A DNA stretch of 64,000 bases from Methylophilus sp. 14. Its GTDB lineage: Bacteria > Pseudomonadota > Gammaproteobacteria > Burkholderiales > Methylophilaceae. The position numbers and the translations under genes are program-made. The stretch spans positions 248,001 to 312,000 of the forward strand of contig NZ_JADKYS010000001.1 in NCBI RefSeq assembly GCF_015354345.1, given 5' to 3'. This document shows positions 3,274 to 43,981 of this stretch, piece by piece (position 1 is the stretch's first letter; each line of letters opens with the position of its first letter). Under the pieces are notes generated by a model. That model did not search any database and was not told the origin of the DNA. It worked only from the letters and a program-made list of their open reading frames with translations.

Positions 3274-4061
3274 GTTGTTTTATCGAAATCATGGGCCAGG
3301 GTAAACCATTGGTCTTGCTGCATGGCTGGGCCATGAATAGCGCGGTCTGGGAACGCGTGGTCAAACGCCTGTCTGCCAGCTATCGCTTGTTTCTGGTCGA
3401 TTTGCCCGGCATGGGCCAAAGCCGGGCCGTCTACCCTTATCATTTACACAGCCTGGCCGAAGCCGTGGCCGAAGAGATTCCTGGCGTGTCTACGATCCTG
3501 GGCTGGTCACTGGGTGGCCTGGTGGCGCAACAGATTGCGCTAAACCAGCCGGATCGTGTCGAGAAGTTAATTCTGGTCGGGACTAACCCTTGTTTTGTCA
3601 GCAAGCCTGATTGGCCAAACGGCATTGCCGCCAGACATTTTGAGCAGTTTAATCAGCGTTTTGAGCAGGACTTTAACGCGACCCTGTTGAATTTTCTGAC
3701 CCTGCAATGCATGCACGCCAAAGATGCCCGCGCGACCGTGCGTCAGTTACGCACTGCGTTCGCTGCCAAACCAACGCCGACGCAGGACAACCTGAACCAG
3801 GCGCTGGATATTTTGCTGCAAACTGATTTGCGTGAAGAGGTGGGCCGGATATTCCAACCGACCTTGCTGATACACGGTGACCGTGACACGCTGGCGCCGG
3901 TGGCCGCCGCACATTGGCTGGCCATGCATTTGCAGCGCGCGCAGTTGCGCGTGATTGCCGGGGCGGCGCATGCGCCATTTTTGTCACATGCAGATGCGTT
4001 CTGCGAATCCGTCGAAGCATTTATGGCCGATGACCCGTCCGAACAGCAAGTGAGTCACTAA
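3270..4061 (+). CDS. bioH: Pimeloyl-ACP methyl ester carboxylesterase BioH
   Basis: An alpha/beta hydrolase that removes the methyl ester from pimeloyl-ACP methyl ester, ending the BioC/BioH disguise of fatty-acid elongation. The nucleophile elbow is GWSLGG with Ser80; the probable acid and base residues lie in HGDRDTLAP and GAAHAPFLSH. At 263 residues it matches E. coli BioH length. The ATGAG overlap with bioF and the one-base overlap with bioC, its pathway partner, make the assignment stronger than the fold alone would. Confidence 0.93.
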   Translation: MSCFIEIMGQGKPLVLLHGWAMNSAVWERVVKRLSASYRLFLVDLPGMGQSRAVYPYHLHSLAEAVAEEIPGVSTILGWSLGGLVAQQIALNQPDRVEKLILVGTNPCFVSKPDWPNGIAARHFEQFNQRFEQDFNATLLNFLTLQCMHAKDARATVRQLRTAFAAKPTPTQDNLNQALDILLQTDLREEVGRIFQPTLLIHGDRDTLAPVAAAHWLAMHLQRAQLRVIAGAAHAPFLSHADAFCESVEAFMADDPSEQQVSH

Positions 4062-4927
4062 TGCAGGATGTTTACCAGATCGACAAGTCGCGTATGCGGC
4101 AGTCGTTTCACCGCGCCGCCAAACAGTATGATGCCGCCGCCATTTTGCAGCGCCAGGTGCGTGAAGAAATGCTCAGCCGCTTGGACGTGGTTAAGCTGGA
4201 GCCAGCCGTGATTCTGGATGCAGGCTGTGGCACTGGCCACGGTTTGCACGCCTTGCTCAAGCAGTTTAAACAAGCACAGGGCATTGCGCTTGATATCGCC
4301 GAAGGCATGCTGGCACGTAGCCGTGCCTTATTCCCCTGGTATCAGTTCTGGCGGGCGAAACCACGCTTTGTGTGTGCTGATATTGAGTCACTGCCCTTGG
4401 CGACCGCCAGTGTCGATATGGTGTGGTCCAACCTGGCGGTGCAGTGGTGTAATGATCTGGACGCCGCCTTGCAGGAATGGCGCCGCGTGTTGCGCCCGAA
4501 TGGCCTGCTGATGTTTGCTACTCTGGGGCCGGATACGCTCAAAGAATTACGCGCCGCGTCTGGCGCCGACCATACGCATGTCAGCCGGTTTATTGATATG
4601 CATGATATTGGCGATGCCCTGACGCGCGCTGGTTTCAGTGCGCCAGTGCTGGACGTGATGCATTACACCTTAACGTATGACACAGTGGAATCCCTGATGC
4701 GTGATCTCAAGGCCATAGGCGCACATAATGCCACCGCTGGCCGTGCCAAGGGTCTGAGCGGAAAAGGATTTTTACAGCAACTGCGGCAGGGCTATGAAGC
4801 GTTCCGCCACGAAGGCAAACTGCCAGCCACTTATGAAGTCGTGTTTGTCCATGCCTGGACTGGCAGCCAGCCTTATACTGCGCCCGGCACCAGCCCGGTC
4901 CAGTTTATGCCACGCAAAGGCAGTTAA
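4061..4927 (+). CDS. bioC: Malonyl-ACP O-methyltransferase BioC
   Basis: A SAM-dependent methyltransferase that methylates malonyl-ACP to start pimelate assembly on the fatty-acid machinery. It carries the SAM-binding motif I (ILDAGCGTGHG), an acidic motif II region and the WSNLAVQWCND segment typical of BioC. The N-terminal sequence with SFHRAAKQYD is characteristic of the family. Length is 288 residues. It sits between bioH and bioD and overlaps bioH by one base, so the operon encodes the complete pimeloyl branch. Confidence 0.94.
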   Translation: MQDVYQIDKSRMRQSFHRAAKQYDAAAILQRQVREEMLSRLDVVKLEPAVILDAGCGTGHGLHALLKQFKQAQGIALDIAEGMLARSRALFPWYQFWRAKPRFVCADIESLPLATASVDMVWSNLAVQWCNDLDAALQEWRRVLRPNGLLMFATLGPDTLKELRAASGADHTHVSRFIDMHDIGDALTRAGFSAPVLDVMHYTLTYDTVESLMRDLKAIGAHNATAGRAKGLSGKGFLQQLRQGYEAFRHEGKLPATYEVVFVHAWTGSQPYTAPGTSPVQFMPRKGS

Positions 4928-4936
4928 AGGGAAGGT

Positions 4937-5581
4937 ATGCACGCGCTGCCACGTCATTTTTTTGTTACCGGCACCGATACCAGTGTGGGCAAAACGACGG
5001 TTACTGTACGCCTGATGCAGCAGTTGGTGGCGCAAGGCTTGACCGTCATTGGCATGAAGCCGGTGGCGTCTGGTTGTGAGTGGGTGGATGGGCGTTGGCA
5101 AAACGACGACGTATTGCAGTTGACCGCCGCTTCTAATGTCGGCGCGCCCGCTGAGTTGATCAACCCCTATTGTTTTGAGCCCGCTATTGCGCCGCATATC
5201 GCCGCCGCCCAGGCTGGCGTGGAGATCGACTTTAACGTGATTCTGGCGGCCTATGCGCAACTCACGACCATGGCCGATGTGGTGATTGTGGAAGGGGCTG
5301 GCGGTTTGCTGGTGCCACTTAACGCTACTCAAACCATTGCTGATTTAATTCAGGCACTCAGTCTGCCTGCGCTGGTGGTGGTGGGCATGCGGCTGGGCTG
5401 TATAAATCATGCCTTGCTCACGGCGCAGGTGCTCAAGCAACGCAATATCGACTTTTGTGGCTGGGTGGCGAACAATATAGACCCGCAGATGTCAGTGCCA
5501 CAAGAAAACTTGCAGAGCCTGATCACTGGCTTGCAACAGCCCCCGGTGCTGCAAGTCCCATTTCAGGAGTCGTTTCACTGA
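4937..5581 (+). CDS. bioD: Dethiobiotin synthetase
   Basis: An ATP-dependent carboxylase that closes the ureido ring of dethiobiotin. The P-loop GTDTSVGKTT covers residues 12-21 with Lys19; a second typical block is VEGAGGLLVPLN. The 214-residue length is usual. The ATG at 4937 is preceded by a good ribosome-binding site (AAGGGAAGG). Its stop codon overlaps the start of the downstream rhomboid gene by one base. Confidence 0.95.
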   Translation: MHALPRHFFVTGTDTSVGKTTVTVRLMQQLVAQGLTVIGMKPVASGCEWVDGRWQNDDVLQLTAASNVGAPAELINPYCFEPAIAPHIAAAQAGVEIDFNVILAAYAQLTTMADVVIVEGAGGLLVPLNATQTIADLIQALSLPALVVVGMRLGCINHALLTAQVLKQRNIDFCGWVANNIDPQMSVPQENLQSLITGLQQPPVLQVPFQESFH

Positions 5582-6633
5582 TGGATCAGTCATTACTCAC
5601 CCGCATTGAGTTGCGCGCGCCGGTACCGCCGATGACACGCTTGCTGATCACATTAAACGTGCTGGTGTTCGTGGTCATGCTGTTTGGTGGGGCAGGTTTT
5701 TGGCATTCACCGAATACCGTACAACTGACCTGGGGCGCCAATTTTGCCCCGGCCACTGCCGATGGCCAGTGGTGGCGCCTGGCGAGCGCGATGTTTCTGC
5801 ACTTTGGCGCCTTGCATCTGGGCATGAATATGCTGGCCCTGTGGGATGGCGGCAAACTGGTCGAACGCATGTTTGGTGCCGTACGTTTTGTGGTGATTTA
5901 CCTGGTCAGCGGTGTCGGCGGTAACCTGTTGTCACTGGTCATCCAAGGCAATGATGCCGTGTCTGGTGGCGCTTCCGGCGCTATTTTCGGGATTTATGGT
6001 GCGCTGCTGGTGTATGTCTGGTTTGGCAGAAAGCAAATGCAGGCACAGGAATTCCGCTGGCTGTTCTGGGGTGCGTTGCTGTTCTCCGCGCTGACCATAG
6101 GCATGGGCTATATCATTCCTGGCATTGATAATTCGGCCCATATTGGCGGCTTTGTCACCGGCATGGTGATGGCAACGCTGTTGCTACCGGTCACCATCGT
6201 GCCCAGTAAACAATTAACACTGACGCAATGGCTGGCGGCCGTATCATGGGTGATTGCGCTGTTTGTCTTGGTGACCCATTTGCCTACGCCCAAATATCGC
6301 TGGCAGCAAGAAATCGCGATACAAAAGCAGGTGCAAAAGCTCAATCAGGTGGACCAGAAAGCACAGCAGAAATGGCGGCAGATCATATTGGAAGGCCGTG
6401 AGGGTAGTGTCAGCTTTGATGATATGGCGGCGCAGATTGATGCACAGGTCGCGACGCCTTATGAAGAAAGCTTTGAAAAGCTATCAGCGTTGCCGGAAGA
6501 TCCTAACCTGCCGTCTGCTGCCTTGCTGGAACAGGCCAAAGCCTATGCCTTGCAACGCAGTGAAGCCAGCAAAGCGGCCGCAGACAAATTGCGTAACGTG
6601 CCGTTTATGCCGGGTAAGCCTGCGACGCCCTAA
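5581..6633 (+). CDS. Rhomboid family intramembrane serine protease
   Basis: A 350-residue membrane protein with about six hydrophobic segments and the rhomboid catalytic pair: Ser132 in GASGAIFG and His187 in SAHIGG. The HxGxxHLxxNM region (residues 74-84) is also conserved. After the membrane domain comes an unusual soluble C-terminal tail of about 130 residues, rich in Gln, Lys and Ala and probably helical. I chose the ATG at 5581, which overlaps the bioD stop, over an upstream in-frame start at 5455 inside bioD. Its substrate is unknown. Placement at the end of the biotin operon suggests co-transcription, not a role in biotin synthesis. Confidence 0.9.
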   Translation: MDQSLLTRIELRAPVPPMTRLLITLNVLVFVVMLFGGAGFWHSPNTVQLTWGANFAPATADGQWWRLASAMFLHFGALHLGMNMLALWDGGKLVERMFGAVRFVVIYLVSGVGGNLLSLVIQGNDAVSGGASGAIFGIYGALLVYVWFGRKQMQAQEFRWLFWGALLFSALTIGMGYIIPGIDNSAHIGGFVTGMVMATLLLPVTIVPSKQLTLTQWLAAVSWVIALFVLVTHLPTPKYRWQQEIAIQKQVQKLNQVDQKAQQKWRQIILEGREGSVSFDDMAAQIDAQVATPYEESFEKLSALPEDPNLPSAALLEQAKAYALQRSEASKAAADKLRNVPFMPGKPATP

Positions 6634-40492: not shown

Positions 40493-40960
40493 TTACAAGT
40501 CAGCCAGCGGCTGGTTGCCTAACGTATTCGATTGTGCATCCAGTTTGCCGATGACCATCTTGAGGGAGAGGTTTAGGCTTTGTAGGGTCTCTATATCCAG
40601 CGTGGCCAGCACTTGCGGCAAAATGCCATCGACAGGTTGGGGTGCTTTGGCCAAAACGGTATGGCCTGCCTCTGTCACAATCAGACCTACTTTACGTTGA
40701 TCCTCGCTGAGGCGCTGTTTTTCAACCAGGTGTTTTTTAACCAGTTTTTCTACCAACAGGCTACAAGTGGATTGGTGAATCGCAAGGTTTTCTGCCAAGC
40801 GTGAGACACCTAATTCTGGATGGCTGGCGATTTCGTGTAAGAGCCACAACTGGGAACCTGAGATGCCGCACGAAGCTTCAATTTCTCTAAAATGTTGTCT
40901 GACGGTACCGAAAATAATTCGAAATTGTTTTAAAGCGTCTTTGGCGAGTGAGTTTTGCAT
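40493..40960 (-). CDS. MarR family transcriptional regulator
   Basis: A 155-residue winged-helix regulator. The recognition region is LGVSRLAENLAIHQSTCSLLVEKLV and the wing has the QRKVGLIVTEAGH motif. Ligand and target are unknown. It lies downstream of the HvfABC-like genes on the same strand with a 180-base gap that holds two palindromes, so it probably has its own promoter; a link to the metal-RiPP operon is possible but not shown. Confidence 0.85.
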   Translation of the reverse strand: MQNSLAKDALKQFRIIFGTVRQHFREIEASCGISGSQLWLLHEIASHPELGVSRLAENLAIHQSTCSLLVEKLVKKHLVEKQRLSEDQRKVGLIVTEAGHTVLAKAPQPVDGILPQVLATLDIETLQSLNLSLKMVIGKLDAQSNTLGNQPLADL

Positions 40961-41139: not shown

Positions 41140-41895
41140 TTATTTTGATAGTAAACCGTCGGCAGAGACGGCTTGTTGCTGGTATAAAGAGGATAACGTT
41201 TCTAAGCCAAATGCGATGACATCCTCGCTTGGGAAATGTGGAATGGTTTGGGCTAACTGTAGTAAGTGCTGATGTGCAGTGGCGGTTTGTGTATGTAGCT
41301 GTTGCAAGAGTTGGTAAGTCATTGCATTTAGCTGGATGAAGCGAACTTTGAATTCGGGCGTACGATAAACCAGTAAAAAGGTTGGTATGGTCTCAACCAA
41401 ACTGTGCTTTTTGGAGAGTCGGTGTACTGCATAATCATAATGCAGCAATTGGTGCGCCTCACATAACTGCACCACGCGATGTAGCAGCGTAGATGCTGTC
41501 GCAGCCGCCGCTGCAAACGCAGGTGGTGCAGTGACTTGCTGGCTAAGTGCCAGCTCTATCCATTCATAGTGTGCGAGTTGTGCGGTGTAGGCTGGATAGT
41601 CTGCTGGGGTCTGCGTGCGCAAAAAAGACACAAAACAGCCTGGAATATCTTTAAACAATGGGCTGTTAAATGACTGTGACGCAAAACACTGCCGCACCAG
41701 TTTGCTAAAGCGGCGTTTGCCAAGAATGTCGCGCAGTACCGGGAAGCAGGCACTGACACTGGCATAAAAGTTATTAAACACGATTTCACGGTAAATACGC
41801 ATGCGCTTGGCGTCGACCCCTGCCGGTTTGGCATGCAGGGCAGGTTGCCGCAAGTGAGCGGTGAACGCCGCTTGGTAGGCTTGAAATGCAGGCAT
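41140..41895 (-). CDS. DUF2063 (HvfC/BufC-like) protein of an MNIO RiPP operon
   Basis: A 251-residue protein with the DUF2063 N-terminal helical region (FQAAFTAHLR-like start, MRIYREIVFNNFYASVSACFPVL). In MNIO systems the equivalent protein (HvfC, BufC, GigB) recruits the precursor peptide to the DUF692 enzyme. The start codon overlaps the hvfB stop by one base (TGATG), so the two are translated together. It is the last gene of the operon; the DoxX-like membrane protein often found next in such operons is not present here. Confidence 0.85.
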   Translation of the reverse strand: MPAFQAYQAAFTAHLRQPALHAKPAGVDAKRMRIYREIVFNNFYASVSACFPVLRDILGKRRFSKLVRQCFASQSFNSPLFKDIPGCFVSFLRTQTPADYPAYTAQLAHYEWIELALSQQVTAPPAFAAAAATASTLLHRVVQLCEAHQLLHYDYAVHRLSKKHSLVETIPTFLLVYRTPEFKVRFIQLNAMTYQLLQQLHTQTATAHQHLLQLAQTIPHFPSEDVIAFGLETLSSLYQQQAVSADGLLSK

Positions 41896-42773
41896 CAGGC
41901 TACCTTGTGCAGGGTGTTTACGTGGAGGGGACGTGCGTGCTGTTGTAGTGAGGCAATCTGGTCAACCTCCTGCATGAGCACAGGCAGCGGCGGAATATGG
42001 CTGTCACGTTCGAGCAAGGTCGGGAACACGCCCAGTTTGTCATAGGCGTATGTTAGCAGGCGCCACACCGGGTCGATAATCGCATCGCCATGGGTATCCA
42101 CCAGCAAATTTGCTTCTACTTGCAAATGCCCGGCCATATGGCCGTAGACAATGCGCTGCGCAGGCAGCAGGTCTAAAAAAGCATAAGGGTCAAAGCCAAA
42201 ATTGACGCTATTGACGTAGACGTTATTAATGTCCAGGTGCAAATCACAGTCAGCTTCGGTCAACACGGCATTGATAAAGCTGATTTCATCCATCTCAGAG
42301 ATGGGGGCCGCCACGTAAAATGAGGCGTTCTCTACGGCGATACGGCGTTGCAGAATATCCTGCGTTTGCTGGATGCGCTGGGCGACATATTTCACGGCTT
42401 CTTCAGTAAACGGCAGTGGCAGTAAATCGTAAATATAGCCATTGGCAGTGTCGCTGCAATAGCTTAAATGTTCGGTATAGAGCGGAATTTCAAACTCAGA
42501 CAGAAACTGTTTGACCTGTTGCAGAAAGCTGACATTGAGCGGGTCTGGCCCGCCCAGTGACAGGCATAAACCATGGCAGGCGATCGGGTAGTGCGCGACC
42601 AGCCAGTCCAGTTCGGCGGCATATTTGCCACCGGCCTGAATCCAGTTTTCAGGCGCAATTTCCAGGAACTGCAAATGCGCCAGGTGCGGCTGGCCATATT
42701 GCTGCATGAGCTGGGGCAATAGCTCACGCTTCAACCCCAGGCCTGCACCATGAATGTCCGCTAACTGTGCCAT
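41895..42773 (-). CDS. MNIO (DUF692) multinuclear non-heme iron oxidase, HvfB-like
   Basis: A 292-residue TIM-barrel enzyme of the DUF692 family, which includes MbnB, TglH, BufB and HvfB. Conserved metal-binding blocks are FLEIAPENW, CHGLCLSLGG, YTEHLSY, DLHLDINNVYVNS, GHMAGH and DTHGDAI. Family members use two or three irons to modify peptide cysteines, giving oxazolone-thioamide or thiooxazole groups that bind copper. It lies 19 bases after the EGxC precursor gene and overlaps the DUF2063 gene. The product here is inferred from the family. Confidence 0.92.
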   Translation of the reverse strand: MAQLADIHGAGLGLKRELLPQLMQQYGQPHLAHLQFLEIAPENWIQAGGKYAAELDWLVAHYPIACHGLCLSLGGPDPLNVSFLQQVKQFLSEFEIPLYTEHLSYCSDTANGYIYDLLPLPFTEEAVKYVAQRIQQTQDILQRRIAVENASFYVAAPISEMDEISFINAVLTEADCDLHLDINNVYVNSVNFGFDPYAFLDLLPAQRIVYGHMAGHLQVEANLLVDTHGDAIIDPVWRLLTYAYDKLGVFPTLLERDSHIPPLPVLMQEVDQIASLQQHARPLHVNTLHKVA

Positions 42774-42792
42774 GGTTGTTTTTTGACAATGA

Positions 42793-43107
42793 TTACTTGC
42801 TAGCGTGGCAAGAGCCTTCTTTCATTTTCTCGGCTGAGCAGCTACCTTCTTTCATCTTGTCTGCAGAGCAGGAGCCCTCTTTGGCTTTATCATGGTGGCA
42901 AGAGCCTTCCTTCATTTTTTTCTTCTCGGCACCACATTTACCGCTGCTACATTTACCTTCTTTGGCCTTGCTGTCTGCAGCATCTGCTACCTGGTAGCCT
43001 TGGCCCAGTGTTTTTAATTCAAACGGATTGTTGCCTGCATGGGCAGTAGCCGCTGCAATGGATAAGGCGACTGCGCCAGTCATTAAAGCCATTTTATGTG
43101 TCGTCAT
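42793..43107 (-). CDS. HvfA-like RiPP precursor with five EGxC motifs
   Basis: A 104-residue exported peptide. A signal sequence (residues 1-24, cut after AHA) leads to a short leader-like region (FELKTLGQGYQVADA) and a Cys-rich core: EGKC at 50-53, GKC at 56-58, then EGSC at 67-70, 77-80, 87-90 and 97-100. The four EGSC units recur every ten residues, separated by Lys-rich linkers such as SADKMK. HvfA-type precursors with EGKCG motifs are substrates of the adjacent DUF692 enzyme and are tied to copper or metal handling. A good site (AAAAAGGA) precedes the ATG. Confidence 0.88.
   Translation of the reverse strand: MTTHKMALMTGAVALSIAAATAHAGNNPFELKTLGQGYQVADAADSKAKEGKCSSGKCGAEKKKMKEGSCHHDKAKEGSCSADKMKEGSCSAEKMKEGSCHASK
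42796..42909 (-). repeat. 30-bp in-frame repeats encoding EGSC units
   Basis: Four tandem units of about 30 bases (last one shortened), each encoding EGSCxxxKxK. They vary at synonymous and linker positions, so the array has diverged by point changes after duplication. Confidence 0.8.
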
Positions 43108-43144
43108 GTTGGTTCCTTTTTAAAACAGGGTTTAAAAGCGGACA

Positions 43145-43393
43145 TCAGTAAAACTTGTCCAGTTGTTGCGTAATGCGTTCCCGTGCTGCCGCTGATAAAA
43201 CATCCTCAGTACGATCCGTGGCGTGCGTCTGCCAAGATTGCATCGCACCTTGAATCCACTTGAGCTGCTGCGTAAAGCGTCGGCAGTAGACGCAAATCAG
43301 CAAGTGCAACCTCACTGCCCAGCGCTCACGCCAGGTGAGCGGGCGGTCAAGTGATTGCGACACCAGTATGCTGGTTTGTTTGCAATTCAACAT
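43145..43393 (-). CDS. zf-HC2 anti-sigma factor-like protein
   Basis: An 82-residue protein from the ATG at 43393, which follows GGAAAAAGAG. It has the zinc-binding HxxxCxxC set in HLLICVYCRR and a short N-terminal Cys (MLNCKQ), as in small cytosolic anti-sigma factors of the zf-HC2 type. There is no membrane helix. A longer reading from 43435 would overlap the sigma factor gene. It directly follows the ECF sigma gene, the usual sigma/anti-sigma order, and precedes the RiPP precursor by 37 bases. Confidence 0.82.
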   Translation of the reverse strand: MLNCKQTSILVSQSLDRPLTWRERWAVRLHLLICVYCRRFTQQLKWIQGAMQSWQTHATDRTEDVLSAAARERITQQLDKFY

Positions 43394-43418
43394 CTCTTTT
43401 TCCGTTTCACCTTGTGCG

Positions 43419-43961
43419 TTACCAGTGCATTTCAAGACATTTTCGCAGTCCCATGCGGGCCCGGTATAACATTACCCATGCATTGGTCGCGGTGATGTTC
43501 AATGCCTTACAAATTTCTTCATTATCCAACTCATCAACATCGCGCATGGTGAAAATGGCTGCCAGTTTTTGCGGCAAACGCGCCATGCATTGCTGCAATA
43601 CCTGCAAAAACTGTTTTTGCTGCAAGGCGTCATGCGGAATATCCCATGCCTGCGGTTTTTCTGCCCAATGACCAGTGTCGTCAAAAAATTCATCCATATT
43701 GGCATCTTCTTCAGTCAGGAGTTCCGATGCCGGGATTTCGCGCAGTTGCTTGCGCATGCAGTCAATGATTTTGTGTTTGAGGATGCCGGTGAGCCAGGTG
43801 CGCGGGCTGGATTGTTCGGCAAAGGTGGGGCTTTTAATCGCTGCCAGCAGGGTTTCCTGCACCACATCTTCCGCTTGATGCGGGTCGCGCAATCGCGTCA
43901 GCGCAAAGCGATATAAGTAATCGCCATGTTCGTTAAGCCAGTCGTGCGGGTTAGCTGCCAT
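43419..43961 (-). CDS. ECF sigma factor
   Basis: A 180-residue sigma-70 family protein with region 2 (GDYLYRFALTRLRDPHQAEDVVQET, spanning the -10 contact) and region 4 (LPQKLAAIFTMRDVDELDNEEICKAL, helix-turn-helix), joined by an acidic linker with DEFF. I chose the ATG at 43961; the frame extends to 44138 inside the neighbouring gene. The paired anti-sigma and RiPP genes downstream suggest it controls this operon. Related metal-RiPP operons (gig genes of Cupriavidus) also involve an ECF sigma factor. Its target promoter was not recognised. Confidence 0.9.
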   Translation of the reverse strand: MAANPHDWLNEHGDYLYRFALTRLRDPHQAEDVVQETLLAAIKSPTFAEQSSPRTWLTGILKHKIIDCMRKQLREIPASELLTEEDANMDEFFDDTGHWAEKPQAWDIPHDALQQKQFLQVLQQCMARLPQKLAAIFTMRDVDELDNEEICKALNITATNAWVMLYRARMGLRKCLEMHW

Positions 43962-43981
43962 GACGGCTATTGAAGCATAAT

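Follow-up and report, generated by a model that had tools for sequence, protein, structure and literature searches.

The 64,000-nt stretch of Methylophilus sp. 14 DNA analysed here (the window, to whose positions all coordinates refer) carries on its minus strand, at 41140-43961, an operon for an extracytoplasmic function (ECF) sigma factor, a ZAS-type anti-sigma factor, an exported cysteine-rich precursor peptide, an MNIO (DUF692) maturase and a DUF2063 partner. We read it, at a probability of roughly 0.7, as an envelope-stress operon of the captophorin (HvfABC-like) type that is controlled from a promoter embedded in itself. The odds are, in our judgement, somewhat better than even that the region 4 codons of the sigma gene double as the sigma factor's own target promoter, raising the anti-sigma factor and the effectors and not the sigma factor. 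The embedded autoregulatory promoter would be the new part, the control of such a peptide operon by an ECF/ZAS pair being already known.

A candidate promoter inside the sigma gene

The predicted element lies between the start of the sigma gene and that of the anti-sigma gene:

43419..43961, minus strand: ECF sigma factor of the TIGR02943 family, 180 aa (202.7 bits against a curated cut-off of 162.2)
43483..43510, minus strand: predicted embedded ECF promoter GTAAGG-N15-CGACCAA, GTAAGGCATTGAACATCACCGCGACCAA, in sigma codons 151-160
43145..43393, minus strand: ZAS-type (HxxxCxxC) zf-HC2 anti-sigma factor, 82 aa, ATG start (NF052368, 77.8 bits against 50; Pfam zf-HC2)

The embedded motif occupies codons of the region 4 helix-turn-helix, 90 nt ahead of the anti-sigma start, and is the sole match in the window, on either strand, to GTMAGG-N15-[CA]G[AT]CNAA. 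The motif was fixed beforehand from the published Neisseria sigma-E consensus, GTMAGBWTT N12-13 CGTCTAAH (PMC2893595, PMC2954202). Scanning oriented loci with that consensus gave 70 plus-strand matches against 34.6 expected from shuffles, and two places stood out: the interior of the sigma gene and, in relatives, the region upstream of the MNIO in a second, bufferin-type operon (at a distance of 432-870 nt in 19 of the 30 loci L002-L031, the operon type being profile-checked in one genome). The window's own element lies under the scan threshold and was found by pattern instead.

Because the protein motif C-K-x-L-x-I-x-x-T-N might by itself produce such a match in a coding sequence, the sigma gene was analysed at the codon level in 74 orthologs. 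TGT was used 74 times (34.6 expected locally) and AAG 74 times (25.5 expected); such codon statistics were striking at many other sigma sites too, and a tree-based count over codons 8-178 is alone taken as evidence. This count takes a tree built from the MNIO and DUF2063 proteins and infers by parsimony the changes at sigma third positions. The 158 degenerate third positions required a mean of 20.9 steps, and exactly three required none: codons 151 (TGT), 152 (AAG) and 158 (NCG), whose wobble bases fall inside GTAAGG and CGAC. At codon 158 the first base changed 24 times (mostly among Ala, Thr, Ser and Pro) and the third base never, while the spacer codons 154-157 underwent 15-23 wobble changes each. 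As the wobbles of the motif never changed while those of the spacer changed freely, selection, to judge from these sequences, is acting on the nucleotides of the embedded motif.

All 74 family sigma genes analysed, out of 81 precursor loci with a sigma hit, have retained the element. Left out were L066, L079, L102, L115, L122 and L126, which score below 200 bits and are distant, partial or broken, and L096, whose projected frame contains stops, while L072 was kept though a stop lies just after its element; among the genes left out, L079, L096 and L115 carry the element and L102 and L126 do not. The distance from GTAAGG to the anti-sigma start is 102-175 nt across orthologs. That the operon has its own sigma factor, as the first-pass annotation held, is thus strengthened, the apparent promoter of the sigma factor sitting inside the sigma gene itself.

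A separate promoter before the precursor was considered and rejected, the anti-sigma and precursor genes being separated by no more than 17-26 nt in several loci. In the consensus scan L066 alone has a close motif directly ahead of the precursor, and weak matches (14 of 17) lie 223-224 nt before it at L109 and L118. In genome G151 the sigma cassette does not precede the peptide genes, and a separate GTAAGG-N15-CGTC lies 110 nt upstream of the precursor.

The sigma gene starts upstream of the embedded promoter and is preceded by a different kind of element:

43969..43977, minus strand: extended -10-like TGCTTCAAT, 7 nt ahead of the sigma ATG

The pattern TGnTTnAAT N5-8 ATG recurs at 34 of the 74 sigma genes, which suggests that TGCTTCAAT N7 ATG marks a housekeeping (sigma-70), perhaps leaderless, start of the sigma mRNA.

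At another site in the window genome, L149:2617-2644 (G000:C10), GTAAGG-N15-AGACTAA, with one mismatch, lies within a small gene, which we take to be cutA, about 117 nt before dsbD; it is a possible second promoter embedded in coding sequence. A literature search on internal or embedded promoters associated with ECF sigma factors found no report of an autoregulatory promoter embedded in a sigma gene; a related case is Caulobacter sigV, whose promoter lies within cabp, the gene ahead of it (PMC13171946).

Copies of the motif ahead of msrP, hvfX and a DUF1223 gene

In the window genome the motif GTAAGGTTTTCCTGTCATATGCGACAAA ends 33 nt ahead of msrP, and a copy with one mismatch stands before the DoxX gene that comes after msrPQ. 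This DoxX protein is of the HvfX family (136.6 bits, cut-off 80), and the captophorin partner is therefore present but unlinked. The first-pass annotation had DoxX as missing, which is correct for the operon and not for the genome. A DUF1223 gene (L146:2670-3504, G000:C1) has an exact GTAAGG-N15-CGACCAA 25 nt before its start and is likely a further sigma target. One-mismatch matches inside genes were not counted as targets.

The association with msrP was assessed independently of the motif, both the msrP orthologs and the sigma status being assigned by protein and the upstream regions then inspected. This covered 90 of the 150 genomes that had a match, made up of the 30 top-scoring loci plus 60 hand-chosen across genera. 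Of 57 genomes with a full sigma factor, 43 have GTAAG-N16-CG[AT]C before msrP; the figures are 3 of 5 where the sigma factor is partial or distant and 5 of 28 where none was detected. The pattern occurs in 0.3% of shuffled sequence. Among assemblies at least 90% complete the counts are 34/47, 1/3 and 1/17 (Fisher p 2e-6 for full versus no sigma, kinship not corrected), and the stricter GTAAGG-N15-CG[AT]C-N-AA gives 37/57, 3/5 and 3/28 over all 90. In G069, a genome of the same genus, no sigma gene was detected, msrP is kept and the motif is absent.

Summed over the 187 family genomes, GTAAGG-N15-CGACWAA matches 146 times and its reversed control 37 times. At the 29 new loci returned, the next feature is MsrP (15), an MNIO of the second type (3), DoxX (1), the sigma element (1) or none of these (9). 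The targets combine a GTMAG-type -35 with a CG(A/T)C -10 at the same spacing, as expected of the Neisseria sigma-E type. Together these observations point to msrPQ, hvfX and the DUF1223 gene as predicted co-regulated genes in an envelope defence against oxidants and copper.

The operon and its conservation

The remaining genes of the operon are:

42793..43107, minus strand: exported precursor peptide, 104 aa, with leader NPFELKTLGQGYQVA
42808..42960, minus strand: precursor core, EGKCSSGKC followed by four EGSC decapeptide units, with cysteines 53, 58, 70, 80, 90 and 100
41895..42773, minus strand: HvfB-type MNIO (DUF692) maturase, 292 aa (NF003818, 387 bits against 360; PF05114)
41140..41895, minus strand: HvfC-type DUF2063 (PME1/RRE) partner, 251 aa (NF050145, 227.6 bits against 142; Pfam DUF2063)

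All five minus-strand reading frames that had been proposed within 2.8 kb are present, and the sigma, anti-sigma, MNIO and DUF2063 proteins score over curated cut-offs. Of the partial overlap also described, only the base at 41895, shared by the MNIO and DUF2063 genes, is found; the other gene pairs do not overlap. The MNIO scores 267.1 bits with the BufB model NF050167 (cut-off 310) and 25.9 bits with the MbnB model TIGR04159 (cut-off 325), both under the cut-off, and it is the single MNIO of the 3.0-Mb window genome. The nearest named sigma factor is that of Methylophilus sp. QUAN (98% identical), with M. methylotrophus at 86%. The anti-sigma factor, which has no evident membrane segment by eye, carries Cys4, His30, Cys34 and Cys37, an HxxxCxxC motif with an N-terminal Cys; with a TIGR02943 sigma factor adjoining it, the two fit the Neisseria sigma-E type of ECF/ZAS pair.

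An MNIO of some type is encoded in 113 of the 187 Methylophilaceae genomes and 19 of 24 genera, and a sigma match at E<=1e-25 in 100 of the 187, some only distant or partial. We compared 100 further MNIO regions, 95 of which, with the window, make up 96 loci whose MNIO exceeds 300 bits to that of the window. A precursor with the leader NPF...GYxVA was extracted at 89 of these 96, and the order sigma, anti-sigma, precursor, MNIO, DUF2063 is kept in 79 of the 89, which argues that the operon is not a chance assembly. A DUF1841 gene stands ahead of the sigma-to-DUF2063 set in 74 of the 89 loci, and HxxxCxxC is present in 78 of 80 anti-sigma orthologs. Profiles and this conservation bear out the earlier proposal of an operon for an MNIO-modified, ribosomally synthesized and post-translationally modified peptide with its own ECF sigma and anti-sigma factors, conserved in Methylophilaceae. 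The operon is a further member of the already known captophorin (oxazolin/bufferin) operons, with a divergent peptide.

Some neighbouring and variant loci may be recorded here. A MarR-family regulator gene lies downstream of the operon on the same strand (40493-40960); within the stretches retrieved, 12 of the 18 ortholog loci from the same genus have a homolog, and the other listed loci of the family have none. In the Methylophilus genome G064 (L046) sigma and msrP are undetected, the anti-sigma gene is missing from the locus and the peptide has four Cys. Another Methylophilus genome has a second captophorin locus (L154, G066:C1:1502000-1511000, at 3790-6314) with a BufA2-like CKG peptide under the model cut-off, an MNIO-DUF2063 fusion of 553 aa that scores over the BufB cut-off, and a DoxX/HvfX-like protein under its cut-off; long MNIO frames of 547-583 aa recur in Methylophilus, and a locus of the L154 type is absent from the window genome.

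The precursor peptide and its possible modification

The precursor has a signal peptide at about residues 1-24 (judged by eye) and the leader shared by the family precursors. Its core has one EGKC and four EGSC units, the latter exactly 10 residues apart, just as first described, and also a sixth Cys (SGKC, residue 58) that had been overlooked. The six contexts are, in order, EGKCS, SGKCG, EGSCH, EGSCS, EGSCS and EGSCH; five of the six Cys have Ser or His next, and repeated EGKCG motifs are absent. In the family Gly follows every core Cys in 22 of 89 precursors, and the first two core Cys are 5 residues apart in 85 of 89. Since distal units range from canonical DGKCGEGKCG to EGSCSAEKMK decapeptides, the EGSC array of the window stands, on this comparison, at one extreme of a graded series, as a diverged version of the EGKCG repeat. 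Assignment to Pfam 'Decapeptide' (PF25296) was rejected (21.6 bits against 45) and the match taken as low-complexity similarity.

Residues equivalent to D249, Phe250 and Arg15 of FonB, the fontiphorin MNIO, were placed by motif and PDB 3bww, without the FonB sequence itself. All 89 MNIOs have the Asp taken as catalytic D249. The site taken as Phe250, a residue said to contact those around the Cys (PMC13097082), is Phe in 3bww and Ser in the window; across the 89 MNIOs it is Ser in 28, Asn in 21, Thr in 19, Ile in 8, Leu in 7, Val in 2, Ala in 2, Phe in 1 and Met in 1. Co-evolution of this site with the repeat was rejected, Ser occurring with 16 all-Gly precursors and with 12 others; Asn, Ile and Leu at this site are never paired with an all-Gly precursor, a pattern confounded by kinship.

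In FonBC assays repeat position 3 tolerated Ala, Arg and Thr, double variants took only Ala besides Gly at position 5, after the Cys, and one FonA variant with Cys-Tyr was modified once (PMC13097082). For this reason the EGSC cysteines followed by Ser or His are only plausible MNIO substrates, and the multi-site product expected of the array by the first-pass annotation is not established. The intolerance of FonBC for most residues after the Cys counts against our overall reading, as do the precursor's scores under the HvfA cut-offs (NF050188, 27.6 against 95; NF050137, 19.2 against 19.5). The peptide could be a plain exported, metallothionein-like Cys peptide in which few or none of the EGSC cysteines are modified and only the EGKCSSGKCG pair is an MNIO substrate, a view favoured also by the constant spacing of the proximal pair beside distal units that vary. 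However, the MNIO and DUF2063 genes stay beside the peptide gene, the Cys-Tyr variant was accepted once, and, because the Phe250 equivalent is Phe in only 1 of 89 MNIOs, substrate tolerance may differ from that of FonB. We regard the plain peptide as unlikely, if far from negligible.

Comparison with known systems

The Neisseria sigma-E-MseR operon NMB2140-2145/NGO1943-1948 (gonophorin) joins, like the window, an ECF sigma factor and a ZAS anti-sigma factor to a captophorin peptide, an MNIO and a DUF2063 protein (PMC2893595, PMC2954202, PMC13097082), and MseR has its Cys4, His30, Cys34 and Cys37 at the same residue numbers as the window protein. The pair controls the set of peptide, MNIO, DUF2063 and DoxX genes (PMC2893595, PMC3240639, PMC2954202); its regulon includes the methionine sulfoxide reductase MsrAB, and oxidants left sigma-E expression unchanged (PMC2893595). 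In Neisseria doxX heads the operon, sigma and anti-sigma close it and the upstream promoter acts in a positive loop, whereas the window operon opens with the sigma gene and has the promoter motif within it, doxX stands in trans, and MsrPQ is the associated reductase.

In Haemophilus influenzae the ECF sigma factor RpoE2 and its small MseR-related anti-sigma factor HrsE target Msr, DoxX, UPF0276 (MNIO) and DUF2063 genes, and RpoE2 has very limited control over its own upstream promoter (PMC7907618). Unlike those of the window, the peptide genes lie away from sigma, encode EGKCG repeats and go with MsrAB. We equate the DoxX gene cluster of H. influenzae with hvfABC (oxazolin). Gonophorin and oxazolin bear 5-thiooxazoles (PMC13097082). 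Fontiphorin FonABC shares with the window an MNIO with a DUF2063 partner, a Lys-Cys repeat precursor and the catalytic Asp (PMC13097082); the window differs in its EGSC units 10 residues apart, its Ser or His after Cys, and its Ser and Lys at the equivalents of FonB Phe250 and Arg15, placed as above.

Caulobacter sigma-F governs two bufferin-type operons together with DoxX and YedY, and couples such operons and YedY/MsrP to heavy metals (PMC3511200); like the regulon predicted here, it places MNIO peptide operons, DoxX and YedY/MsrP under one sigma factor. It differs in its six-helix membrane regulator (NrsF type), its DUF2282 peptides and its promoter, GTAACC-N16-CGAA. A survey of the MNIO landscape places sigma genes in clusters of the Buf1 type but in none of Buf2, and finds genes of the MsrP and MsrQ families (molybdopterin oxidoreductase and ferric reductase) in small numbers of EGKCG clusters (PMC12452194).

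The first-pass annotation called the system metal-responsive, and the operon might indeed answer to copper or gold, the oxidant-repair genes being incidental: captophorins bind copper (PMC13097082), and GIG operons of Legionella and Cupriavidus have been reported in connection with gold and copper. As stated, the claim is not supported. The predicted trans targets are msrPQ, hvfX and DUF1223; the relatives with this pairing that are known best respond to oxidant damage or repair it (PMC7907618, PMC2893595), RpoE2 and its DoxX/UPF0276/DUF2063 genes responding to hypochlorous acid (PMC7907618). A purely metal-stress operon seems to us distinctly unlikely.

Proposed mechanism

In the circuit we envisage, an oxidant or a thiophilic metal would disrupt the zinc-thiolate site formed by the ZAS cysteines of the anti-sigma factor and free the sigma factor, which would fire the embedded promoter and raise the anti-sigma factor, peptide, MNIO and DUF2063 protein. 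The sigma factor itself would not rise, because its gene starts upstream of that promoter, probably from a housekeeping one, and the raised anti-sigma factor would give a delayed shut-off. The DUF2063 protein would present the peptide leader to the MNIO, which may form 5-thiooxazoles at some of the six cysteines or at all of them; the modified peptide, once exported, would sequester copper in the periplasm, while MsrPQ would repair oxidised methionines with the assistance of HvfX. This circuit would join MNIO peptides, HvfX and MsrPQ in one predicted oxidant/copper regulon in methylotrophs and explain where the DoxX absent from the operon is. If it holds, a DNA-reading helix and the DNA that it reads share bases, constraining the evolution of both, in a simple feedback design, and the EGSC array would offer a natural substrate set for the Cys-flanking residues that an MNIO accepts.

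Several observations weigh against the embedded promoter and its regulon. Motif matches with at most one mismatch are not enriched in the window genome (9 against 20 for the control), so that the trans targets rest on position and comparison. The msrP motif is lacking in 14 of the 57 full-sigma genomes, 13 of them in one genus (g18), and present in the 5 of 28 no-sigma genomes counted above, four of which are assemblies less than 90% complete. The embedded -10 is usually CGACCAA, a form rarer before msrP than CGACTAA or CGACAAA. The element is absent at L252, and at L218, L223 and L238 (with long flanks) it is kept with no MNIO found after the anti-sigma gene, which ties it to the anti-sigma gene more than to the peptide.

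That the frozen bases instead serve as an RNA structure or translation element, a site for another protein, or a polymerase decoy or pause would fit a -10 that is not the commonest in trans and the relatives with no MNIO found behind the anti-sigma gene, but is quite improbable given that the sequence and 15-nt spacing equal those of the trans copies and fit the Neisseria consensus, that the spacer wobble sites are free to change, and that direction and distance suit transcription of the anti-sigma gene.

Reach beyond Methylophilaceae

Among 80 named loci, many of them from Methylophilaceae, 79 could be aligned and 55 have the embedded element exactly; in a class-wide sample it is exact in 6 of 29 sigma genes besides that of the window. 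The 31 named loci from outside the family, hand-picked from the 80, divide into GTAAGG with CGAC (8), GTCAGG with CGAC (7), another -35 with CGAC (8), GTAAGG with another -10 (2) and neither (6), so that 15 of 31 pair GTAAGG or GTCAGG with CGAC. A Gln codon (CAG) takes the place of the Lys codon in several relatives from Gallionella, Sideroxydans and Nitrotoga and gives GTCAGG, followed by CGACTAA; this variant still fits the Neisseria GTMAG. Farther afield, the planctomycete Zavarzinella formosa (L287) has a sigma factor (42% identical) and an anti-sigma factor with an MsrP homolog downstream, a locus that suggests an old link between this sigma factor and Msr.

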